A stretch of DNA of 44,144 nucleotides from Bacteroidota bacterium (GTDB lineage Bacteria > Bacteroidota > Bacteroidia > B-17B0 > Aurantibacillaceae). The stretch covers positions 1 to 44,144 of the forward strand of contig JACDED010000023.1 of NCBI GenBank assembly GCA_013816615.1. Direction: 5' to 3'. A program made the translations under genes and the position numbers. How positions within the stretch are numbered: the first letter of the stretch is position 1; each line of letters begins with the position of its first letter. The notes under the pieces were generated by a model. The model saw nothing but the letters and a program-made list of their open reading frames with translations. It was not told the DNA's origin and searched no databases. Below, in pieces: positions 217-11,707 of the stretch.

Positions 217-1602
217 TTATAGATTTTTAAATTCTATTAGCATACTAAAGCCCTTATCATTGGTGTAATTTATGATGCCGTCTAACTGTTCTTCAACAAG
301 AACTTTAACTAAGTTCATTCCTAACGCTGTTTCTGCTAAAAAAGATGTTTCGTTATTGATGCCTTGTCCGTTATCTGAATAATAAAAACAAATTGTATTT
401 GCCTCGCTTGTTTTTATATTTATAGAAATAATAATGTTTTTTTCGAGATTGTGTTTTAATGAATTTGTAATCAATTCGTTTAAAATAAGACCAACTGCAT
501 TTGTTTGATCGATGTTAAGTGTTAAGGATGTTTCAATATCAATGTTGAATTTGTGGTTTTGATATTCAAAATTGCTTACAAGATCAGTAATATAGGTTCT
601 TAAAAGAATGTAATCAATATTATCTGTTTTGCAAAGCACCTCATGTACTTTTGACATCGCGTATAACCTGTTTTTTGTTTCTTGTAAGGCACTTATTAAT
701 TCTTTATTGGTTGATTCATTAATTTGAATATTAATAAGGCTAATGGTTGTTTGCAGATTGTTTTTTGCCCGGTGATATACTTCTCTTAATAATAATTCTT
801 TTTCTTTTAAAGAACCTTTAATTCTATCTTCATATAATCTTCGGCTTGTAATATCCTCAGAAATTGAAGTGCCGCCAATAACCTTGCCATCAGGGCTAAA
901 CAGGGGGGCATAGATTGTTTTTAAATAGGTTGTTTTGCCACTGAGTACAGATTTGTATTCGCCTTCATGCCTACCAATTCTTCCTTCCAACGCTTCTTTT
1001 AATGCAGCTAGTTGTTTTTGATCCTTAACATCAGTATGTGTTTTAACGTTACTGATCTTTTCTTTTGATGCACCTAAAATATCCATTAATACTTTGTTAA
1101 AAGCAGTAATATTACCTTCGGCATTAAAGTGCGCAATTCCTATTGGTGCTTTTTCAAAGATAGAGCGGAATTTTTCTTCACTTAATCTAAGTGCTTCAAC
1201 CGATTTTTTTAAAGCAGAAATATCTTTGGTTTGAGAAATAAAATATTTTGGTGTCCCATCCACATCTCTGATCAAAGCACAATTTATAAGAACATTAATA
1301 ACATGACCTTGTTTATGAAAATATCTTTTTTCAATTTCAAAACGATCAGCTTTTCCAGAGATCAAAAGCGCTGCATTCAAATTTCCAATATCAATATCTT
1401 CGGGATGGGTTATGGAATTGAACTCTTTTTGTAAAAGTTCTTCCTTATTGTAACCTAATATTTCACATAAATGAGTGTTAATTTTTATCCATTTACGATC
1501 TAATGATACTACAGCCATACCAATAAACGATTTATCGAATAATTGATTCATTTCAAATTCACTCAAAATAGGTTCTTGAGTTGGTGGTTCTGTAGGATTC
1601 AT
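217..1602 (-). CDS. PAS-domain sensor histidine kinase, HisKA_2 type
   Basis: A soluble two-component kinase with no membrane segment, so it probably senses a cytoplasmic or diffusible signal. In the numbering of the longer TTG-started frame, a first PAS domain spans about residues 25-140 and a second about 145-262 with its PAC end (GGTSISEDIT). The HisKA_2 dimerisation box is REVYHRAKNNLQ with phospho-acceptor H284. The ATPase part has the N-box NELITNSLKH and a DNGQG box at 417-421. The frame is open to a TTG at 1623, but the ATG seven codons in gives the natural start MNPTEPP, so I use 1602. No response regulator is adjacent; the cognate regulator must lie elsewhere. The family assignment is firm, the signal unknown. 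Confidence 0.9.
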   Translation of the reverse strand: MNPTEPPTQEPILSEFEMNQLFDKSFIGMAVVSLDRKWIKINTHLCEILGYNKEELLQKEFNSITHPEDIDIGNLNAALLISGKADRFEIEKRYFHKQGHVINVLINCALIRDVDGTPKYFISQTKDISALKKSVEALRLSEEKFRSIFEKAPIGIAHFNAEGNITAFNKVLMDILGASKEKISNVKTHTDVKDQKQLAALKEALEGRIGRHEGEYKSVLSGKTTYLKTIYAPLFSPDGKVIGGTSISEDITSRRLYEDRIKGSLKEKELLLREVYHRAKNNLQTTISLINIQINESTNKELISALQETKNRLYAMSKVHEVLCKTDNIDYILLRTYITDLVSNFEYQNHKFNIDIETSLTLNIDQTNAVGLILNELITNSLKHNLEKNIIISINIKTSEANTICFYYSDNGQGINNETSFLAETALGMNLVKVLVEEQLDGIINYTNDKGFSMLIEFKNL

Positions 1603-1653
1603 TTTGGATACTATACAAACCAAAAATACATATAATACGGGATTTTATTGTAA

Positions 1654-2217
1654 TTATTCTACAATAATATCATGTCTATATAAGAGATTTTCGAGGTCTT
1701 GTCGAAGAAATTTAGCCTTTTTGATATTATTCAGTTCAGGGTCTATAAGAAAATTTTTACTTGTCGTAAAATCTACTGTGCTCAGGTTGGTAGTATCAAA
1801 AAGAGATTCAAAAAGATCACAATTGGTAAAAGTACATTTAGAAAGATCGGCTTGTGTAAAATTAACGTTATTAATTCTACAATTCTTAAATGTGCTTTTA
1901 TTTAATTTCTTTCTGTCAAATGATGCGTAATCCAAAACGCAGTTCTCAAAATGCAATTCTAAAGCAAAATCAATAGCGCCTGAAAAATTAAGGCCTAACA
2001 ATTTACAATCGTAAAATGCAACATTTTGTAAACGGCTGTTCATCGTTTTTAAATTGCTGAGGTCGCAGTTCTTAAAATCACAATCCGAAAAACTGATATC
2101 GTTTAACCCTGGAAATACACAATTTATAAACTCGCAATTATCAAAACGTTCTCTTTCTTCTTTTTGAGAAGAAAAATCAATACTTCTTAATTGTTCTTTC
2201 TGTTTTAATTTTGCCAT
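1654..2217 (-). CDS. Pentapeptide-repeat protein
   Basis: Of 187 residues, roughly 20-155 are tandem pentapeptide repeats of the A(D/N)LXX class, here mostly F-x-N-C-x units such as 'FKNCDL', 'FENCVL' and 'FTNCDL'. They predict a right-handed quadrilateral beta-helix. There is no signal peptide or membrane segment, so it should be cytoplasmic. It ends in a short basic helical tail (KKAKFLRQDLENLLYRH). The upstream lipoprotein gene stops 2 bp before this start codon, so the two are almost certainly co-transcribed. Some pentapeptide proteins protect gyrase (Qnr, MfpA), but nothing here points specifically to that. Function is not assigned. Confidence 0.85.
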   Translation of the reverse strand: MAKLKQKEQLRSIDFSSQKEERERFDNCEFINCVFPGLNDISFSDCDFKNCDLSNLKTMNSRLQNVAFYDCKLLGLNFSGAIDFALELHFENCVLDYASFDRKKLNKSTFKNCRINNVNFTQADLSKCTFTNCDLFESLFDTTNLSTVDFTTSKNFLIDPELNNIKKAKFLRQDLENLLYRHDIIVE

Positions 2218-2219
2218 AA

Positions 2220-3116
2220 CTATCTTCCAAAACTATCGTAATAAGCTGACGCGTATTCTTCATACGATTTAATTAATGTAATATTTTTTATCTCAAGGTC
2301 AGTTAATTCTTTCGAAACATCGGTAGAAACTGGAATATACCATGAAATTTCAGAATCAAAAAAATAGCGCATTATTCTGTTCTTGAATGAATAACCATGA
2401 CGCGCATAAATGGTATTGCGCATTACTTCCAAATCGCGTTTATACATATTCTCAATATCCTTTCCTTGAAGGACGATGGCAGAAGCATTAAATTTCCCGG
2501 CTTCTTCCGTAATAAATTCACCTTCAAATTCGTTATTTGCGGCAGGATCATAAACACCATGCCTTCCTCCTAAATTTAAATTTTGTTGCGGATCATATTG
2601 AAATACTTTTTTACTTAAAGAGTAACTTCTTTTTGTAACAGCTAACTTTTTATCATTTGCTACCCATGTACCAGTTATTTTACCAGGTTGGGTAAAGATG
2701 GTAAATGTAAAAACACCATCATACTTATTGTTTCCGGGTTCTTTTGCCTCGCTTATATATAAATTATCTTTTTGAGAAAAATTGCCTTTAAACGGACGAT
2801 TGTTTCCTGCAACAACCGAATGGCCAAATAATTCTTCATCTACAATGGAATCTATGGAAACATTGATCCTATTAAAATAAGACGGTGCTTTTTTTGCATC
2901 TGAGACAACAGCTTCAAATTCGCCAACATAAAAACCAATAAGAGAACTAGTTTCAGTTAAAGGTTCAACAGCACTGTTATTAAGAGCCAATTTTCCTTCA
3001 TCAATTGCAGCTGTATCAATTATATGCATAGGTTGTTCTTCCGGTTTTTTTGCATCACCACAGGCGCTTATGCAAATTGCAAGAACGGAAAAATTAAAGA
3101 GTTGTTTTACTTTCAT
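2220..3116 (-). CDS. YARHG-domain lipoprotein
   Basis: A probable lipoprotein: hydrophobic leader MKVKQLFNFSVLAICISAC with lipid-attachment Cys19, then an acidic, Pro-rich spacer. The middle of the protein (about 60-175) is beta-rich ('GFYVGEFEAVV', 'FTFTIFTQPGKITGTWV') and resembles extracytoplasmic binding or lipocalin-like folds. The C-terminal 65 residues form a YARHG domain, with the namesake motif YARHG at 237-241 followed by FKNRIMRYFF and ELTDLEIKNI. This is a small domain common in secreted bacterial proteins of unknown role. The start overlaps the end of the upstream DUF2306 gene by 23 bp, and the pentapeptide gene follows after 2 bp, giving a three-gene operon. Confidence 0.85.
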   Translation of the reverse strand: MKVKQLFNFSVLAICISACGDAKKPEEQPMHIIDTAAIDEGKLALNNSAVEPLTETSSLIGFYVGEFEAVVSDAKKAPSYFNRINVSIDSIVDEELFGHSVVAGNNRPFKGNFSQKDNLYISEAKEPGNNKYDGVFTFTIFTQPGKITGTWVANDKKLAVTKRSYSLSKKVFQYDPQQNLNLGGRHGVYDPAANNEFEGEFITEEAGKFNASAIVLQGKDIENMYKRDLEVMRNTIYARHGYSFKNRIMRYFFDSEISWYIPVSTDVSKELTDLEIKNITLIKSYEEYASAYYDSFGR

Positions 3117-3759
3117 TTTTAAATTGATTTAAAATTATTATTTCTGCTATTACTAAATTTAATGTCCAGCCGAGCCAGGCAACAATTTGATAAACATCCA
3201 TTGGTTTTGGATGAAACAAAGCTACTAAAATATATTTCCACGCCCGTAAAGTTATTGCTGATAGTGCTAATGCAAAACTTCTGATCATCCATTTACGATG
3301 TGAAAGTACCTGTTTTTTAGTGATCTTCAAAAGCGCCAAAGCTGTAAATAATATCCAAAGGATGGATAATAAACAAAAAGCAATTTTTGAACTAATACCC
3401 CCATTAGCGTAAACACCAATAATGAAGCCTGAAGGCCCGGCTAAAAATAAAGTAACAATAACATACAGCCAGCCTAAGTGCTTATGAATAACAGGAAATT
3501 TAACTCTTATTTTTTTTGAGAATTGTGTAAAGCCTGCAAGCAAAACAAAAATGGCGCTAAATACATGAACAAAAAATGCAATGCGGTAATGGGTAAGATG
3601 AATATAACTTTGTTTGATGGCTAAAAAGGCTGCATCGGTTTTTATTGGGATATATTGCAAAGTGATCTTAAGCATTAACCAAAAAAAGAAAGTGTAAGCT
3701 AATAATACACTATAAATAAAAAATTTATTTTTTGATATGCCGGTTAAAAATGAAAACAC
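3094..3759 (-). CDS. DUF2306 integral membrane protein
   Basis: Very hydrophobic, 221 residues, with about six membrane segments (for example 15-32, 56-78, 92-116, 122-146). Conserved His residues sit at segment edges: 'YRIAFFVHVFSA', 'PVIHKHLGWLYV' and 'LSHRKWMIRSFAL'. The H-R-K-W-M signature and the HxxLG pattern are typical of DUF2306, a family often placed near cytochrome b561-like proteins, so haem or quinone contact is possible but not shown. The start codon is GTG; no ATG lies before the first membrane segment. Its end overlaps the YARHG lipoprotein start by 23 bp, implying translational coupling. Confidence 0.8.
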   Translation of the reverse strand: MFSFLTGISKNKFFIYSVLLAYTFFFWLMLKITLQYIPIKTDAAFLAIKQSYIHLTHYRIAFFVHVFSAIFVLLAGFTQFSKKIRVKFPVIHKHLGWLYVIVTLFLAGPSGFIIGVYANGGISSKIAFCLLSILWILFTALALLKITKKQVLSHRKWMIRSFALALSAITLRAWKYILVALFHPKPMDVYQIVAWLGWTLNLVIAEIIILNQFKNESKTTL

Positions 3760-3795
3760 TATTTATTATGTTTTTCCAAAGGGATAAAATATATT

Positions 3796-4119
3796 TTAGT
3801 ATTTTGATTTTAAACTCTCAAGTGTCAACTCGTATTTTTTCAGGTCTTCTGTGCTTAAATTAATGCCCGCACTATTTTGACCAGTATCACCTTCCATTAA
3901 AGGTGTAATGTTAACCGATACCCTGTAATAAACGGTTTTCATATTTGGGTATGTTTTTGAAAGTTGTGCCAGGGCTTTTTCCACCACTCCCGGCAAATGA
4001 ATAATATCTGTTGCATTAATAGCAATCACTTGTTCATTAGTAGATACATTATTTTTATCGATCACATTTAAAATGTCAAACTTTACTTTTTTATCATCGA
4101 TGATCATTTCTTTTTCCAT
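3796..4119 (-). CDS. Small conserved-looking protein of unknown function
   Basis: 107 residues, no signal peptide or membrane segment. It alternates short beta stretches (MIIDDKKVKFDIL, TVYYRVSVNI) with a helix (GVVEKALAQLSKTYP) and a charged C-terminal helix. I recognise no family. The start could equally be Met5 of the same frame (MIIDDKK). It lies 36 bp upstream of the GTG start of the DUF2306 gene on the same strand, so it may be the first gene of that operon. Balanced codon use and a sensible amphipathic pattern favour a real gene. Confidence 0.6.
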   Translation of the reverse strand: MEKEMIIDDKKVKFDILNVIDKNNVSTNEQVIAINATDIIHLPGVVEKALAQLSKTYPNMKTVYYRVSVNITPLMEGDTGQNSAGINLSTEDLKKYELTLESLKSKY

Positions 4120-4206
4120 AGTGCGTATATTGATAAACTAAGTTAACTTTTTTTATTTGCTTAAGCAATAAATTTACTTTTTTTGGGAAGGAAAATAAAA
4201 GAGATA

Positions 4207-6150
4207 TTAATTATTATATGGCCTTGCCTGTTTAAATAAAAAAACTCTTTTTTTATCGGGTATTTCAATTAACTTAAACTCTACATCCATGGCAAAATAC
4301 TTGTATTCCATAGCCGGCCAAAGTTTATATAGTTTATAAAAATGTTTTTTTATACTTTCCAATTGTAATGTTAACTGTTCTAATTCTTCTGAAGATAACA
4401 ATGATTTCTTGGGCGAAAGGGTGGAAAAACTTAACCAGTCTGCAGAACTATTCTTGTTATAAAAATCGCCCCATTCAGTATTCATGTAAGAGATCAATTG
4501 CTCGCAAACGGTTCCTGTTTTAGGAGCAACTACTTCTTCTTCGCCTTTTTGCAAATTTATTACAAAACCAACTTCATAATCGCGATACAAATTTTTAGTT
4601 ACGGCAACGCCATTTACAATTTCATTTTCAAATGCTGGGTGCACCAATACTGCCATGTAAACCGTTTCGTGCGCAATGTTAAAAAACGCACGTTCTTTAA
4701 ATGCTCTCACTGACCATAAGCTGGCCCATACTTTTTTTATAGCTGATTCAATTTTTTTTGACGTATCACCTACAATTCCTGTAGCAGATGTATAAAGCCC
4801 GGCTCCGTTAAAACCGGCGTCATCTTCACAATTTGAGGAAGAGCGGAAACGTACTTTATTTTTACCAAATTTTTGGTTGCATAAAACAGTTACATCTTTT
4901 AATAAGTTAGGATTGATGGGTGAATTCTTTATTTCACGCCTTATTTTTTTTAAACTTATTTCAATAAGACTGTCGTTTTTTAAAACAAGCGTGTCTTGTA
5001 AAAACTCTTTAATTAATTTACCGGCAACGGAATTATTTATATGTTTTGCATAATAATAAAACGGAATGGCAAAAGCATTTTCGGGTGTGGATAGAAGCTT
5101 TTCTCTGAATTTTATTTTTTTCAATTCCGCAAGATTGCAAGCCTTTGAACCGTAAATATTCTTTTGCTTGTAAGATAGATTTAACAGACCTGCAATGTAT
5201 TTTATGCTGGTATCTGATAAAAGTTTTATTTTTTTAGCTACTTTTTTAGCCGAAACATTACTTAAGTGATCGGTTAATTTAATACTTACTTTGTTTTCAT
5301 CTACGATTATTTCAACCAACTTATTATTAAAGCGCTTTAACGAATCGATCGAAAAGATATCTTTTTGCGCTGCACAAGGTGTTTTTCTGCCGGCTGTTAA
5401 AAGGCAGATATGGCTTAATGGTGTTTGAAATTGATTAGTGATAACAGCTTTGCAAACCGGAATCTCGTTAGAGTTTCCATTCAGGATCAAAATGTTGTTT
5501 GCGTAATTATTATTTTGTTTTAAAGAATCTGCATCAATAAATTTTAAAATACCGTTTGCTTTTCCTAAATAAATGGGTTGGTATGTTTGATTACTAAATA
5601 GCTCGTCACTTGTAAAAACCTTATGTTTTTGCTCGATCTCTTTTTTACGCCTTAATAATACGGTAGAATTAAGTAATATTTTAAATTGATCTTTTTTATA
5701 GAATGTATTCTGAACTTTTTCCACAAGTGTATTTATCAATTCATCACTTGGATCATCGGGCGTAGCAAATTGTAAAAAATAATTTTTAGTGTTTACATTA
5801 TAATTAAATGTTGCAAGTATATATTTTCTTGCCGGCGAGTTGCTGTAATTCTTTTGATTAAAATCCGACAGTTCTTCAAAATCACCTAATACATCGCTTG
5901 TAAAACGGTAATGCCATTTGTATTTTTTAGATTCGAGGTAATATAATGTTTTAGTGCTAAGAATGTACACAAGCTTAACACATTCAATACCATTAAAGTT
6001 TTTTGAAAGAGGATCGCCTTTTAAAAGATCAAAATCTTTCCTGGTTTCTAATTTTAATAAATAATCAGGTACTTTATTTTTTGTTTGCGCAATTGCTGAA
6101 GCAATAGAATAAATAAAGATCAAAAAATGAAATATAAACCTTTGTATCAT
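4207..6150 (-). CDS. Exported PEP/pyruvate-dikinase-like protein with glucan-water-dikinase domain order
   Basis: 647 residues beginning with a clear signal peptide (MIQRFIFHFLIFIYSIASAIAQ). Residues 25-200 form an unassigned N-terminal region. Residues 220-290 look like the swivelling phosphohistidine domain, with TPLSHICLLTAGRKTPCAA and candidate catalytic His247; this resembles the LSHVSVRARN-type motif of glucan water dikinases. Residues 330-647 are a PPDK-type ATP-grasp domain: YGSKACNLAEL (Lys336), RFRSSSNCEDDAGFNGAGLY (435-453), KKVWASLWSVRAF, NGVAVTKN, and the closing FLFKQARPY. The PEP/pyruvate TIM barrel of PEP synthase is absent. Family chemistry is ATP-dependent phosphorylation of an acceptor through phosphohistidine. 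The acceptor, and how ATP would reach an exported enzyme, are unknown. It stands alone, without glycan genes beside it. Confidence 0.85.
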   Translation of the reverse strand: MIQRFIFHFLIFIYSIASAIAQTKNKVPDYLLKLETRKDFDLLKGDPLSKNFNGIECVKLVYILSTKTLYYLESKKYKWHYRFTSDVLGDFEELSDFNQKNYSNSPARKYILATFNYNVNTKNYFLQFATPDDPSDELINTLVEKVQNTFYKKDQFKILLNSTVLLRRKKEIEQKHKVFTSDELFSNQTYQPIYLGKANGILKFIDADSLKQNNNYANNILILNGNSNEIPVCKAVITNQFQTPLSHICLLTAGRKTPCAAQKDIFSIDSLKRFNNKLVEIIVDENKVSIKLTDHLSNVSAKKVAKKIKLLSDTSIKYIAGLLNLSYKQKNIYGSKACNLAELKKIKFREKLLSTPENAFAIPFYYYAKHINNSVAGKLIKEFLQDTLVLKNDSLIEISLKKIRREIKNSPINPNLLKDVTVLCNQKFGKNKVRFRSSSNCEDDAGFNGAGLYTSATGIVGDTSKKIESAIKKVWASLWSVRAFKERAFFNIAHETVYMAVLVHPAFENEIVNGVAVTKNLYRDYEVGFVINLQKGEEEVVAPKTGTVCEQLISYMNTEWGDFYNKNSSADWLSFSTLSPKKSLLSSEELEQLTLQLESIKKHFYKLYKLWPAMEYKYFAMDVEFKLIEIPDKKRVFLFKQARPYNN

Positions 6151-6177
6151 TGAGTATTTAAAGATACAGATTTCGGT

Positions 6178-7134
6178 TTAAAGAGTAGATGGTAAAGTAA
6201 GGTCTTTTATTTCTGAACCACCCCATTCAACTACTGTAAAGCCATCACGTTTAAATGTTTCTATCTGTTGTTCTTTTACAATTGTATTTTCGTTTGTTTT
6301 TGACCATAACATGCACACGCGAAAAAGATGATCGGGCTTGGGATCAACAGAAATAGAAGCGTATTTATTGTATTCTTCATTAAAGATAAAATGAATGTAA
6401 TTTTTTTCATTCGCGTTCATGCGCGGACACCAGTAGGTAATATAATCTTCAATTTCTTGTGAGCTCAAGCCCATTAATTTTAATTTTTCTTCAAAAAAGC
6501 CAACAAGATCATTTTTATTAATTATAAATCCTGTACTAAAATCAAGTTTCTTCGTTTCAATATTTATTTTTCCATCCCAAAATAAATAATGATATTTTTT
6601 ATCTCCCATTTCTATCAGGCCATTTGGATTGGCGATAAAGTTCCAGCCATTACTGTATTGTGGGTAGGTAAATAAAAAGTCACCTTTAAGATCAAGCTTT
6701 ATAGAAACGTTTTCTTTTTGTTTACTATAAACATAGATCACCGGTTTATCAACCGTCATATTCATATTAGACGTTCTGAAATTTACCAGCATATCAGTAG
6801 CGTATCCGGGTTTTATTAAGATACTATCGGTGTATATTTCAAAAAATCTATTAGAATTAAAAAATTGGAAAAGGTATTTACCCGGCTTTACCTTAAGTGA
6901 GAACTTACCTTTTGCATCCGGTGTTTGAGTTTTACTTTTACCATTATAAGAAAACATAATAACGCTTTTTATTGGCTTGCGAAGCGTATCTATAAAAGTA
7001 AAATTAAACGCGGCTTCTGTTTTTGAAAGTGTATTGTCAGGAGCGGATCTGGTTATTATATAATCGGGGCCAAGCTTTTCAGCAAAAGATGTGATCGTTA
7101 AAAAAATTAAAATACTTAAAAATAGAGTTTTCAT
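6178..7134 (-). CDS. Exported protein with KPVIY...GFTVVEWGG conserved region
   Basis: About 318 residues. The frame extends to a TTG further upstream, but the ATG at 7134 starts directly on a signal peptide (MKTLFLSILIFLTITSFAEK). The next 100 residues look like a carboxypeptidase-regulatory or PEGA-like beta domain (PDAKGKFSLKVKPGKYLFQFF). From about residue 140 (KPVIYVYSKQKENVSIKLDL, then TYPQYSNGWNF, YHYLFWDG, YWCPRMNANEKNYIHF, GFTVVEWGGSEI) it matches a protein type that I recall as widespread in bacteria and archaea but without a named function. It starts 28 bp upstream of the dikinase-like gene's start on the same strand, so the two may be co-transcribed and both exported. Confidence 0.75.
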   Translation of the reverse strand: MKTLFLSILIFLTITSFAEKLGPDYIITRSAPDNTLSKTEAAFNFTFIDTLRKPIKSVIMFSYNGKSKTQTPDAKGKFSLKVKPGKYLFQFFNSNRFFEIYTDSILIKPGYATDMLVNFRTSNMNMTVDKPVIYVYSKQKENVSIKLDLKGDFLFTYPQYSNGWNFIANPNGLIEMGDKKYHYLFWDGKINIETKKLDFSTGFIINKNDLVGFFEEKLKLMGLSSQEIEDYITYWCPRMNANEKNYIHFIFNEEYNKYASISVDPKPDHLFRVCMLWSKTNENTIVKEQQIETFKRDGFTVVEWGGSEIKDLTLPSTL

Positions 7135-7253
7135 GTTTTTACGGTGTTGTTTATTAATAAGATGCAAGAACTAAACTTATTCCACAATAAAATAGAATTT
7201 TTTAGTTTTAAAATGAAAGGTCCGGAGAGGTTAAATGAGAATAAAAAATAGGT

Positions 7254-7757
7254 TTATGGAAGTTTAACCCACTTCATTCTTATTTTGGCACCGTTTAAAC
7301 GATTTTTTGGAGTTAATAGAAGTGTTTTGCCTTTTATTTCAAATTCACGTTTTAAAATAGCGCCAACGCTTTCGGGGTTTGTTGATGAAAGAATTTTGTG
7401 TTCTATTACATTACCTTCAATTTTACAATCGGCAAAATAAATAAGGTTATTACTATAATAATCTACAACAACTTTCATCCCACTGCTATCTTTTTTATTT
7501 AAATTAAAATCCTGATAATCTGCAGGCGTGATCTGAACCGCCACATGACCGGCCCCGTCAAATATAATATAACCAACATAGCCCATGCGACTTGTTTCTG
7601 TAAACCATTTCCCTGCCAGGGTATCGTATGCCTCATATTTATCAAGTATCCATAAACCTTTGAATTGTTCTTGTGTAATTGCTTTAGCTTTTTGGCTATG
7701 GCCATAAAAGAACACTACTAAAAATAATAAGCTGTAAAAAAGTTGTTTAGTTTTCAT
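7254..7757 (-). CDS. Exported lipocalin-like domain protein
   Basis: The frame reaches a TTG at 7805, but the ATG at 7757 begins a normal signal peptide (MKTKQLFYSLLFLVVFFYGHSQ), so that start is chosen. The mature part (about 145 residues) is beta-rich with the lipocalin-like opening F-K-G-L-W-I-L (compare GTWxL), then MGYVGYIIFDGAGHVAVQI and a closing KTLLLTPKNR...RMKWVKL strand. This fits the Lipocalin_5-type family, small extracytoplasmic barrels that may bind hydrophobic ligands. No ligand can be inferred. It is a single gene on the minus strand with a terminator from the upstream gene ahead of it. Confidence 0.7.
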   Translation of the reverse strand: MKTKQLFYSLLFLVVFFYGHSQKAKAITQEQFKGLWILDKYEAYDTLAGKWFTETSRMGYVGYIIFDGAGHVAVQITPADYQDFNLNKKDSSGMKVVVDYYSNNLIYFADCKIEGNVIEHKILSSTNPESVGAILKREFEIKGKTLLLTPKNRLNGAKIRMKWVKLP

Positions 7758-7814
7758 AACGGATCTTGAATAGTTTAAAGATAAAAATAATATCTGACCA
7801 AACAAATCAAAAGC

Positions 7815-7842
7815 AAAAAAGGCACGTGCTTAAGCACGTGCC
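7815..7842 (-). terminator. Intrinsic terminator of the glycine-zipper lipoprotein gene
   Basis: A perfect 22-bp palindrome at 7821-7842 (arm GGCACGTGCTT) is followed on the minus strand by TTTTTT. It lies about 70 bp past the stop of the glycine-zipper gene. Confidence 0.85.
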
Positions 7843-7911
7843 GGGGAATAAATTAAAGAAAAGTATGGTAATTTACCAGTAAACAAAGACAGTAAAGTCT
7901 TATTTAATATT

Positions 7912-8400
7912 TTATTTTACAGTTGATGTTTGCGCTGCTTTCTTATCCTTTGCATTACCAATTGCTGCACCGGCACCAGCACCAGCTGCTGCGCCAATTA
8001 AACCACCTACAACAGCGCCCTCACCTTTTTTACCATCAACAATAACACCTGTAACAGCGCCTACAACGGCACCTGTACCAGCACCTATCAAGGCACCTTT
8101 GGTTTTGTTATTCATTTTTTTCTTTTGTTCTGGTGTAACATTTGTGTTACCAGACGAGGTATTAGAGGTATTATTTGAAGAGTAGGAAGTAGAACGGCGA
8201 CGATCTTTTTCAGCTTCTACAATCTGATTCATTGAATCAATGCTGTTTTGTCTTTGTAAATTCGCGGTATTAATTGCATTTACCGAATTAATAGAATCAA
8301 TGGTTGAGCTTGCACGTTCTTCCGCGTCTTTTACTGCTTGTTTTTGGCCACATGAGCCTAGTAAAACAGAAAGAGCGATTATTGAGATTAAATTTTTCAT
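7912..8400 (-). CDS. Glycine-zipper lipoprotein
   Basis: 162 residues. The leader MKNLISIIALSVLLGSC has a textbook lipobox with Cys17. Residues 20-75 are charged and helical (repeated IDSINSVNAI / NSIDSMNQIVEAEKDRR), a possible periplasmic coiled coil. A Ser/Asn-rich spacer follows. Residues 103-150 form two hydrophobic Gly-zipper hairpins (GALIGAGTGAVVGAVTGVIV and GAVVGGLIGAAAGAGAGAAI) separated by a DGKKGEG turn, as in YMGG/OmpA-like glycine-zipper families associated with envelope integrity. It is transcribed alone and ends at the palindromic terminator just downstream. Confidence 0.85.
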   Translation of the reverse strand: MKNLISIIALSVLLGSCGQKQAVKDAEERASSTIDSINSVNAINTANLQRQNSIDSMNQIVEAEKDRRRSTSYSSNNTSNTSSGNTNVTPEQKKKMNNKTKGALIGAGTGAVVGAVTGVIVDGKKGEGAVVGGLIGAAAGAGAGAAIGNAKDKKAAQTSTVK

Positions 8401-8554
8401 AACTACGTTTTTTTTAAAGAATTCTTAAAATTCTTATTTATTGTAGAAAAAAGCATGCCAACAATCAAATGCCTGTTAACAAAGCGACGCGAAAGAATGT
8501 GGGAATTATGAGTGTAATAAATTAACTCTTCCTGGGCAATAATATCCCCAGTTT

Positions 8555-8944
8555 TTATAACAAAGAAGATACTTTTAAAATATCACCTTTTGCTTCAACA
8601 ACTTTAAACTTGTATGCAAGTTTCTTTTTATCATCCAATACAGTAACAACTTTTGTTCTTGCATTGTAAGTCCATTTACCTTCAACAAAATAATGGTTAT
8701 CTGTTGGTCCGGCATGTAAATATTTACATTTTCCATCGCTTGAAAATTCAATGGATAAACGAAACCTGCTTGGTCCGAATTGATTTGTACACGGGCGATA
8801 CACCTGCGTTTTTGCTTTTTCATCATTCTCCTCATAAGCTGCTTTCCAGCAAGTGAAGAATTCTTTTGGAAGTGGTGTTTTTTTTATGCCTGCCACGCAG
8901 TTTATTGAAATAAATAAAATTGCTATGATAATTATATTTTTCAT
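8555..8944 (-). CDS. Small exported protein, unknown function
   Basis: 129 residues with signal peptide MKNIIIIAILFISINCVAG. The mature part contains FFTCWKAAYEE, YRPCTNQFGPSRFRLSIEF, DGKCKYLH and KWTYNARTKVVTVLDDKKKLAYKFKVVEAKGDILKVSSL. This is a beta-sheet pattern with three Cys residues (a possible disulphide) that recalls small lipocalin-like proteins of Bacteroidota; a close family match is not recognised. It lies 13 bp downstream of the next exported gene on the same strand and is probably co-transcribed with it. Confidence 0.7.
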   Translation of the reverse strand: MKNIIIIAILFISINCVAGIKKTPLPKEFFTCWKAAYEENDEKAKTQVYRPCTNQFGPSRFRLSIEFSSDGKCKYLHAGPTDNHYFVEGKWTYNARTKVVTVLDDKKKLAYKFKVVEAKGDILKVSSLL

Positions 8945-8957
8945 AATGAAATAGGTT

Positions 8958-9629
8958 TTATAGTTCTTTAACCGGCTTTCCTTTGGGAAAATTTATAACA
9001 TCCGGAGTTAATTTTTTTGGTTCTATTTTTTCAAGTTCATACACAACACTGTATTTTATTGATTCCATGATCAGTTTGTAATAAGGCGCCTGCATTTTAA
9101 GCACGAGTTTGTTATAGAACATATCATTAAAATTAGCATATAGTTTCCAATCAATATATTCTTTTCCTACAGGATAAAAATAATGTAATGAGGTAGGCTG
9201 TTTACTTCTTGCATCACCTCCCGAAATAAAATACGATTTACAGGCAACACCATTTATTATTGCGTCTTCTTTTTCTGTTTCTTCTTTTTGAATGAGTGTG
9301 TTTTTCGCGCAATCAGATGCTTTAATAGTGTCATTATTACGCATTTTTGTATATAGCCTGTTTAGTTGTTGCATGTAAATACTAAAATCAGTACCAAACA
9401 ACATACCGCTAAATGGATATTCGCGTTTAAAATTACCGTTCTTGTATACAGATAAGATAAGGCTTTTACCAAATTTTTGTGACTGATGCTTTGTGTATTC
9501 TTCGTTACCTGGTTTTGGTATAAAGGTGATCTTGTAAGTAATAATACCTTCAAAAGATTCTTTTTCTTTTGGAGGCATAAAACTTGTAAACGTAAGAAAA
9601 ATCAAAGTAGTAAATAAGATCCTGATCAT
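8958..9629 (-). CDS. Exported protein, GLPGLI/DUF4412-like layout
   Basis: 223 residues with a signal peptide ending near 'TSFMPPKE'. The opening strand FEGIITYKITF, the internal YTKMRNNDTIKASDC and the central INGVACKSYFISGGD...HYFYPVGKEYIDW follow the order seen in GLPGLI and DUF4412 proteins: periplasmic beta-barrel-like proteins with a G-x-I-x-Y start and a G-x-x-C-K/xY middle. The similarity is by eye and moderate. It precedes the 129-residue exported gene by 13 bp. No function can be given beyond envelope location. Confidence 0.65.
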   Translation of the reverse strand: MIRILFTTLIFLTFTSFMPPKEKESFEGIITYKITFIPKPGNEEYTKHQSQKFGKSLILSVYKNGNFKREYPFSGMLFGTDFSIYMQQLNRLYTKMRNNDTIKASDCAKNTLIQKEETEKEDAIINGVACKSYFISGGDARSKQPTSLHYFYPVGKEYIDWKLYANFNDMFYNKLVLKMQAPYYKLIMESIKYSVVYELEKIEPKKLTPDVINFPKGKPVKEL

Positions 9630-9687
9630 TATATTTTTTAAAAGCGGAAATAAAGATAAGAAACTTTTTAAACTAAATTATTTTAAG

Positions 9688-10143
9688 TTATTTTTTAGAG
9701 GGTGCTACTGAACCGTAACGCCATTTTTTTAAATGCGTGCCTTGATTTTTTAAGCTAACAATATCGATTAATTGTTCGTAATAACGGTAGATCCTATCCA
9801 GATCTTCAGAGTTAAGTTCAGTATAATAAGGATCAAATCTCTCTAATCCACTTTTGATCTTTGCCTGGTATTCTTCCTCGCTTGCATTAGCAGAAGCAAG
9901 TTGCATAAAGTCGCGAGCTGATTCATTTATAAGATCGCTTAATTTTGTTTTAAGTGTTTTGGAATTTATACCGGGGTACATTAATGCTTCATCTGCCTGG
10001 AATTTCTTTTCTTTTATAAAAGATTCGAGCTTGTTTACAACCACACTGCCAATTTCCTGTATTACAGGTTCGTGTTTATTAATACCTACAATTAAGTTTG
10101 AAGTGAAACAAAAGATCAAAAAAAGGTAAAATAGTTTTTTCAT
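9688..10143 (-). CDS. DUF4844-like exported protein
   Basis: The frame runs to a GTG at 10227, but the ATG at 10143 opens a signal peptide (MKKLFYLFLIFCFTSNLIVG), so 151 residues is the likely product. The mature part is helical: KLESFIKEKKFQADEALMYPGINSKTLKTKL, NESARDFMQLASANASEEEYQAKIKSGLERFD, LDRIYRYYEQLIDIV, ending WRYG. This order (FxxDxxxYPGI ... DRIYRYYEQLMDIV) fits DUF4844, a Bacteroidota-rich family of unknown role. The gene appears monocistronic. Confidence 0.65.
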   Translation of the reverse strand: MKKLFYLFLIFCFTSNLIVGINKHEPVIQEIGSVVVNKLESFIKEKKFQADEALMYPGINSKTLKTKLSDLINESARDFMQLASANASEEEYQAKIKSGLERFDPYYTELNSEDLDRIYRYYEQLIDIVSLKNQGTHLKKWRYGSVAPSKK

Positions 10144-10309
10144 GGCTATAGTATTTACAAATTCTATTGCTATGAAATTATCTTTTTTTAAGGAGGTGGG
10201 ATGCAGTGTTTTTGAAGACTTATGCACAATTCACAGAATACCATCATGTTATTTAAGTAAACACTTAAAGTACTTGAAACCTGATGTTTAAATTATTTAA
10301 GAATATTTA

Positions 10310-11707
10310 TTAACGGTTTAAATTCCTTTCTAAATATTTTTCGGTTGGGAGTAAACTTTTTTGAATACGTTTAGCATAATGAATACTGGCTAAAATTTCT
10401 TTTTGTTTTTCTTCAATTATATCTTTTTGCAATTTCATTTGTTTACGCGCTGTATTTATTTTTATAAGAATAAAAATAACCAGCGCAACAGATAGTAATG
10501 CCAGGATAAAAGCTATTATCAAAACATTTTTTATTTTATTATCCGTTTCTTTTTCTTTGTTAAGAAATTGAATTTCCTTTTCTTTCTCATTATTTTCAAA
10601 CCTGGCTTCTAATTCGTTAATATTTTTACTGTTCTGAACAGAAAATATAGAATCCTTTAATTCGGATGCTCTTTTAAAATAAACAAGCGCTTCGTTTAAA
10701 AGACCTGTTTTTTCGCTAATAGAAGATTTTGTTTCGTAAATATTTGGCAGGGTTTGAAGGATGCCATATTTTAAACTGTAATAAATAGAGCTATCAATTG
10801 CCAGAGTTGCTTTTTTGTAATCCTTTAGTTGGAAATAATTTTCGGCAATGTTACGGTAAGAAATAATAATACCCGGAAATTCAGAAAATTTAAGAGAGAA
10901 TCTCAACGATTCTTTTCCCACATCAATAGCTTTTTTATAATCGCCTTTTTTTTGGTAAAGAACTGTTAATGATTCCAACGTCCATTTTTGCACAACCGGC
11001 TGATTTAAACTATCACCAAGCTTTAATGCCCGGTCAAGAAAAAAAGTAGCATTGCTGTAATCTTCCAAACGTGTGTAAACCGAACCAATTCGCATTAAGA
11101 GCATGCCGCTGTTATGCGATTCGTTTATTGTGTTATTTATTTCTATAGCTTTAAAATAGTAGTAAAGCGCTTTTTTATAGTCATGATTTGGTTTTGCATA
11201 AGTAGCAAGACCAAGAAGATTGTAACCCCATGAAATTGATCTTGGTTTTCCGGCCTTGCTGGCATAATCTATCCCTTCCAGATAGGTTTTAATAGCCGCT
11301 TCGTAATCTGCAATAGTATAAAAGGTAAAACCTAATCGTATATGTGCAACTGCCGTTAAAGAATCGTTGCTAAGTTCTTTAGAAAGAACAATTGCTTTTT
11401 GTAGATTTTTTTTAGCCTCTTCGTATTCAGAATATTCAACGGCAGCAGAACCTAACTTATAATAGATATAAGTTTCAGCATATTTATTATTTGTTTTTTT
11501 AAAATCTGCTAAAAACCTTTCGGCGTGGGATTTTACAAAATCGTAATTATTTTCAAATTGTGATATGATCCTTCCCGCTGTGTAAACTTTATTTAGTCCA
11601 TCTTTTTGCCGGGTATACTCTTTAATAAGGCTATCTGTTTTTGATGCAGATAATTTGCCTGCTAAAACCAGAACAAATAAGAAGATTATATAAGGCCTTA
11701 TGATCAA
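10310..11707 (-). CDS. Membrane-anchored TPR receptor ending in a SpoIIE-type linker, no phosphatase domain
   Basis: 465 residues. A signal peptide (about 1-22) precedes about seven tetratricopeptide repeats (55-340; e.g. 'AETYIYYKLGSAAVEYSEYEEAKKNL'-type helix pairs), a coiled coil rich in Glu/Lys (350-390), one membrane segment (VLIIAFILALLSVALVIFILI) and a cytoplasmic helix EEKQKEILASIHYAKRIQKSLLPTEKY. In relatives this SI-x-YA-x-RIQ helix leads into a SpoIIE PP2C domain; here two tandem TAA stops follow ERNLNR. The other TPR receptor in this window stops at nearly the same point, so this looks like a settled architecture, not a fresh truncation. The start is TTG; no ATG precedes the signal peptide. 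Confidence 0.85.
   Translation of the reverse strand: MIIRPYIIFLFVLVLAGKLSASKTDSLIKEYTRQKDGLNKVYTAGRIISQFENNYDFVKSHAERFLADFKKTNNKYAETYIYYKLGSAAVEYSEYEEAKKNLQKAIVLSKELSNDSLTAVAHIRLGFTFYTIADYEAAIKTYLEGIDYASKAGKPRSISWGYNLLGLATYAKPNHDYKKALYYYFKAIEINNTINESHNSGMLLMRIGSVYTRLEDYSNATFFLDRALKLGDSLNQPVVQKWTLESLTVLYQKKGDYKKAIDVGKESLRFSLKFSEFPGIIISYRNIAENYFQLKDYKKATLAIDSSIYYSLKYGILQTLPNIYETKSSISEKTGLLNEALVYFKRASELKDSIFSVQNSKNINELEARFENNEKEKEIQFLNKEKETDNKIKNVLIIAFILALLSVALVIFILIKINTARKQMKLQKDIIEEKQKEILASIHYAKRIQKSLLPTEKYLERNLNR

Follow-up and report, generated by a model that had tools for sequence, protein, structure and literature searches.

The window analysed here, i.e., the whole stretch of 44,144 nucleotides from a Bacteroidota bacterium (contig JACDED010000023.1), contains a gene for a protein with the parts of a dikinase, namely a phosphohistidine (swivel) domain and an ATP-grasp domain, behind what is predicted to be a signal peptide (Table 1). 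A first-pass annotation of the sequence had located this gene at 4207-6150. The coordinates hold, but the gene lies on the minus strand; the plus-strand translation is stop-rich. The gene upstream of it may be co-transcribed with the dikinase, and no BLAST relative of it was found beside the other family members examined. Altogether, 12 other genes were inspected at 220-11707. Four of them have no Pfam match and the rest match no glycan family, in agreement with the earlier remark that no glycan locus adjoins.

Table 1. Features of the dikinase-like gene and of related loci (window coordinates unless a locus is named).
Feature	Position	Strand	Basis or remark
CDS, predicted exported swivel/ATP-grasp (dikinase-like) protein, 647 aa	4207..6150	minus	open frame with ATG; homologues
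Signal peptide (predicted), residues 1-21, ...ASAIA/Q22	6088..6150	minus	sequence, Q-rule context, family-wide enrichment of export motifs
N-terminal domain, fold without assignment, residues ~28-190	5581..6069	minus	invariant residues K59, H80, F83, N98, Y102, R108
Phosphohistidine (swivel) domain, residues 195-293	5272..5568	minus	sub-threshold PF22973 match; conserved block around His
His247, predicted phosphate carrier, in QTPLSHICLL	5410..5412	minus	kept in 44/44 aligned sequences
ATP-grasp domain (PPDK_N), residues 331-645	4216..5160	minus	Pfam PF01326, E 9.7e-20
Lys336, equivalent of RPH Lys22 (ATP phosphates)	5143..5145	minus	44/44 sequences; RPH alignment; PMC4844700
EDDAGFNGAGLY motif, residues 442-453	4792..4827	minus	sequence and family alignment
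Gln641-Ala642-Arg643, end of ATP-grasp domain	4222..4230	minus	Gln309 and Arg311 of S. microflavus RPH
Gene upstream of the dikinase, 329 aa, with an apparent signal peptide	6178-7167	minus	no match in Pfam; 27 bases separate its end from the dikinase start
Second exported-type PPDK_N protein, T9SS type A sorting domain	L002:1215-3695 (= L076:1215-3668)	minus	same genome
~970-aa dikinase group linked to NTT-HEAT and two beta-lactamase-fold genes	L085-L094, e.g. L085:4007-6835, 6844-8106, 2957-3985	+, -, + (L085)	
Trio of genes for an ATP-grasp protein, a swivel-first dikinase lacking a signal peptide and an MFS transporter	L055:4541-9368; L108:3604-8284		Streptomyces plasmids

The ATP-grasp domain is recognised by the PPDK_N model with 71.5 bits against a cutoff of 27 (Pfam, E 9.7e-20), and the EDDAGFNGAGLY motif is found at residues 442-453, as stated earlier. 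It had also been claimed that the swivel domain precedes the ATP-grasp domain, the reverse of PEP synthase (PPS). This is borne out, since two PPS controls and one RPH control score strongly with ATP-grasp first and the swivel later. A regular-expression check of the domain order is passed by 41 of the 44 aligned sequences introduced below; in the three that it missed (L017, L019, L021), the alignment does show the histidine, within a motif that falls outside the search pattern used. In both PPS controls the ATP-grasp domain, the His domain and PEP-utilizers_C follow each other, a layout that the window protein does not show. That is, it has the PPDK_N domain in common with PEP synthase/PPDK but is reversed in order, is without PEP-utilizers_C and is predicted to be exported. 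Its end only four residues past Gln-Ala-Arg leaves no PEP-binding domain. We thus rejected a plain PPS/PPDK identity, given the reversed order and the missing PEP-utilizers_C. The motif GGxT(S/C)H, described for the catalytic histidine of PEP synthase/PPDK in PMC12167813, is absent at His247, where the sequence reads QTPLSH. Structure prediction with AlphaFold2 gave poor models (two sequences each), i.e., a mean pLDDT of 34.9 for the whole protein and of 52.2 for residues 22-194.

To assess conservation, we aligned the window protein with 43 relatives. These 44 sequences were drawn from 54 loci, of which 10 rows were dropped as fragments or locus-end cuts (L012, L014, L015, L039, L041, L043, L052-L054) or as a duplicate (L004, identical in sequence to L016). 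His247, Lys336, Arg436, Glu442, Asp443 and Asp622 are kept in 44/44 sequences, while Glu624, Gln641 and Arg643 are found in 43/44 with the truncated L023 as exception. The LSHICLL segment around His247, noted in the first pass, is present in the 647-aa translation, and the conservation of its histidine exceeds chance.

The ATP-grasp residues map one to one on those of RPH, with Thr136 replaced by Ser. Lys336 aligns on Lys23 of the Streptomyces enzyme (Lys22 of the Listeria enzyme), and Arg436, Ser455, Glu624, Gln641 and Arg643 align on its Arg117, Thr136, Glu297, Gln309 and Arg311, respectively. For Listeria RPH, PMC4844700 reports Lys22, Arg117 and Thr136 as the residues that hold the ATP phosphates in position, with loss of resistance in their mutants. 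The same source describes the Glu297Ala variant as still active, so Glu624 is weak evidence. The order of RPH differs, with ATP-grasp, acceptor domain and C-terminal swivel (PMC4844700 and our RPH control), and HpeHI is a dikinase split over two proteins according to PMC12167813, unlike the single-chain window protein. With a PPDK_N score above the cutoff and with K336, R436, S455 (Ser for Thr) and E624 in place, the window protein belongs to the dikinase ATP-grasp superfamily. The invariance of the nucleotide-site residues suggests that binding of ATP or AMP is real, and judged by these residues the enzyme appears catalytically competent. A degenerate, inactive binding protein would suit a location poor in ATP and the patchy distribution reported below; we regard it as extremely unlikely, given that relatives of ~24-34% identity still have His247 and the residues of the ATP site.

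With regard to localisation, the first 21 residues resemble a Sec signal peptide with cleavage between ASAIA and Q22, and Q22 fits the 'Q-rule' that PMC5837995 describes for signal-peptide cleavage in Bacteroidetes. We compared the window protein and 40 family loci (n=41) with the neighbouring ORFs, which were called mechanically. A strict export rule picks out 31/41 family members vs. 110/523 neighbouring ORFs (p 1.7e-12), and five of the 31 carry a lipobox. Using a lax rule, the values rise to 39/41 and 228/523, i.e., 44% of the background. The 10 members missed by the strict rule mostly show ordinary signal peptides by eye or have wrong starts; two of them (L068, L074) are perhaps uncleaved anchors. 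The leader together with this family-wide enrichment, i.e., motif rules and comparison, supports the export that had been predicted for the window protein. In one subfamily, which includes a paralogue from the same genome, five of seven members carry a T9SS sorting domain above the cutoff, a sixth matches more weakly at its tail, and the seventh runs into the contig end. Three N-terminally extended proteins (L028, L029, L030) show an internal T9SS-tail-like stretch before the dikinase part, in all cases below the cutoffs.

Relatives at E <= 1e-10 occur in 12/87 genomes of the order (own genome included), with identities of up to 70% within the order. They were found in at least 31/395 genomes of the class and at least 19/395 of the phylum, two overlapping draws in which up to three candidates per genome were scored such that both counts are lower bounds. 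The distribution is patchy. In the window genome (97.4% complete), a PPDK_N search at E <= 1e-5 found two proteins, both of the exported-type clade, and no ordinary PPS or PPDK. The second one is the paralogue mentioned above (L002, E 2.1e-10), a member of the T9SS subfamily. A FastTree phylogeny of the ATP-grasp domain unites the 43 Bacteroidota proteins in one clade (support 0.997); the truncated L023 was left out of the tree, and the domain was cut unevenly in the Peptoclostridium protein and in one Streptomyces protein. Two Streptomyces proteins are nearest to this clade (support 0.869), and the PPS, RPH and Peptoclostridium proteins lie apart from this grouping. Since these latter four are not monophyletic, midpoint rooting was used; support for the branching among the subfamilies is weak.

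Both Streptomyces proteins (WP_142270066.1 and WP_331760287.1, 'PEP/pyruvate-binding domain-containing protein') show the same order of N-terminal domain, swivel and ATP-grasp. They have K59, H80, N98, Y102, R108, H247, K336 and R436 in common with the window protein, as well as E442, D443, D622, E624, Q641 and R643 (in the domain-only alignment, Lys336 is outside the aligned stretch of one of them). Unlike the window protein, they have no signal peptide by eye. Their genes are located on two plasmids, each flanked on one side by a gene for an ATP-grasp protein and on the other by one for an MFS transporter, and the resulting trio is possibly a small biosynthetic cluster. The ATP-grasp neighbour in L055 is nearest to the model of the alanine-anticapsin ligase BacD (E 2.8e-57), but reaches 194 bits where the cutoff is 850.

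For the N-terminal region of the window protein, neither a Pfam match nor a PDB sequence match above the cutoff was obtained. Within the group of ~640-850 aa that includes the window protein, K59, H80, F83, N98, Y102 and R108 are invariant in 30/30 sequences. The T9SS group (n=7) of this alignment keeps Lys59, His80 and Phe83 and is without Asn98, Tyr102 and Arg108, and the ~970-aa group (n=7) retains from these six only Lys59 (some members) and one Tyr102. Six residues invariant in the subfamily, five of them common to the Streptomyces proteins, suggest that the N-terminal domain is the acceptor site, which would have diverged in the T9SS group and would be another one in the ~970-aa group. 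Given the Streptomyces architecture, the five shared N-terminal residues and the ATP-grasp and MFS neighbours, a small polar acceptor is at least as indicated as a glycan; we consider a small polar or charged molecule more likely than a starch-like polysaccharide.

This bears on the relation to plant glucan water dikinases, which the first-pass annotation had drawn. In GWD the histidine domain precedes the ATP-grasp domain, as is also implied by the family name of PF22973 (GWD1_pHisD). The window protein shows this layout, i.e., a phosphohistidine domain and then a C-terminal PPDK_N, in accordance with the catalytic histidine domain and the C-terminal PPDK_N ATP-grasp domain described for GWD/PWD (PMC11986951, PMC7569903). 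Furthermore, GWD1_pHisD is matched by 7/26 family members at E <= 0.1 (best 0.0011) vs. 1/26 for the PEP-utilizers model, so that of the two models the GWD one suits the swivel domain better. Both the order and these weak matches would fit an exported bacterial counterpart of the glucan/phosphoglucan water dikinases of plants, acting on a surface or periplasmic polysaccharide. The two swivel scores read out, on the other hand, stay below the cutoff of 27 (14.5 bits and E 0.027 for region 195-293 of the window protein, and 17.2 bits). For residues 25-200, where a carbohydrate-binding fold had been considered, Pfam gives no carbohydrate-binding module. CBM45 and CBM20 are absent from residues 25-190 of the window protein as well as from the 15 families matched across 26 members. 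In place of a known sugar-binding module there is an N-terminal domain with invariant polar residues, and these are common to the Streptomyces proteins, which are alike in architecture without signal peptide or evident glycan context. Beside being bacterial and predicted to be exported, the window protein also differs from GWD in the absence of the CFATC motif, which according to PMC11986951 is not kept in green and red algal GWDs either. Thus, neither a specific GWD relationship nor a glycan acceptor is borne out, and we consider the polysaccharide-directed counterpart unlikely. The window protein may be GWD-like in its working, yet a GWD identity is not supported.

Around the ~640-aa form, the neighbouring genes are not conserved across the family loci and therefore name neither donor nor acceptor; an operon-based function was rejected for this form, as its neighbours vary between loci. 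A gene with two ABC_tran domains, for instance, follows the dikinase only in two close relatives (L056, L059; scanned for L056). For the distant ~970-aa group, likewise of the exported type, a cluster of ~940-aa proteins is nearby in 9/10 loci, and two other clusters are in 9/10 and 8/10. The scanned ~940-aa representative combines a TLC ATP/ADP-transporter domain with HEAT repeats (NTT-HEAT, E 4e-13), and the representatives of the other two are beta-lactamase-fold proteins (PF13354). In L085, one beta-lactamase-fold gene begins ~23 bases past the dikinase stop.

We also compared the occurrence of both genes. The ~970-aa form is present in 9/395 class genomes, and NTT-HEAT matches at E <= 1e-20 occur in 21/395 including all nine (p 5e-13, shared ancestry ignored). 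When the limit is set to E < 1e-130, a value chosen post hoc, eight genomes remain that are all among the nine (p 6.6e-16, shared ancestry again ignored). The dikinase and the NTT-HEAT gene are within ~3 kb in 7/8 genomes; in G435 they are ~150 kb apart. Among the other exported forms, just 1/22 genomes has an NTT-HEAT match (p 1.0, i.e., no association), so the link concerns a sister group and bears on the window protein by analogy only. NTT-HEAT fusions, the functions of which are called unknown in PMC5381601, are the partner gene of the distant ~970-aa subfamily; they were not found in the window genome and are not tied to the subfamily of the window protein. An ATP supply by an NTT transporter is accordingly not supported for the window genome, i.e., it gave no NTT-HEAT match, and PF03219 was found in 0/87 genomes of the order, a weak null as control genomes also gave no match.

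Taken together, we favour an extracytoplasmic dikinase-type phosphotransferase, which would pass phosphate from ATP via histidine to an acceptor and leave AMP and Pi, as the probable, if by no means certain, function of the window protein. Architecture, conservation, export-like signals and clade form its direct basis, from which we infer catalysis, donor and acceptor. Sec would export the protein, with a probable cut by signal peptidase I in front of Gln22. Once the protein is outside the cytoplasm, its C-terminal ATP-grasp domain would bind ATP and, by analogy with RPH and GWD, pass the beta-phosphate to His247 with release of AMP and Pi. The swivel domain may then ferry the phosphate to an acceptor held by the N-terminal domain, in a site presumably formed by Lys59, His80, Asn98, Tyr102 and Arg108. 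Candidate acceptors are an envelope intermediate, a metabolite or an exogenous compound.

ATP is scarce outside the cytoplasm, and its candidate sources are nucleotide that has leaked out or is present extracellularly, or else dedicated transport. This scarcity would be met by another donor or a reverse reaction, i.e., His247 would take over phosphate from a phosphorylated compound of exogenous origin and hand it on to AMP/Pi or water, in a scavenging or relay role with little need of ATP. For bacteria and protozoa, PMC5371819 describes the PPDK reaction as running in the direction of ATP, and according to PMC12167813 the swivel component HpeH alone transfers phosphate between substrates. The invariant nucleotide-site residues, which suggest true binding of ATP or AMP, argue against such a role, and we judge it improbable. 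A secreted VadK-type autokinase or regulatory kinase with other exported proteins as targets seems to us very unlikely. VadK is a PPDK-derived, autophosphorylating kinase, but PMC13400623, which describes it, has it control the methylcitrate cycle, an intracellular pathway. The enzyme-like invariant set in the N-terminal domain and the lack of a conserved partner gene beside the ~640-aa form also speak against a regulatory kinase.

The dikinases compared here are known from the cytoplasm (RPH, HpeHI, VadK) or from the plastid (GWD). Exported dikinases of the present kind are not described in the titles and abstracts among the matches listed for the open-licence literature. The interest of the family lies in its predicted extracytoplasmic location together with the invariance of its ATP site, i.e., if these proteins work outside the cytoplasm, an unexpected energy supply is needed. 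More tentatively, and although we hold it to be less likely than not, we suggest that ATP-powered phosphohistidine chemistry may take place in the periplasm or at the cell surface of several Bacteroidota lineages, by a clade of exported dikinases with diverged or swapped acceptor domains, and that in one lineage the NTT-HEAT protein encoded alongside may bring cytoplasmic nucleotide. If true, phosphotransfer chemistry and usable nucleotide would exist outside the cytoplasm in a large bacterial phylum, and the linked NTT-HEAT transporters would gain a testable role.
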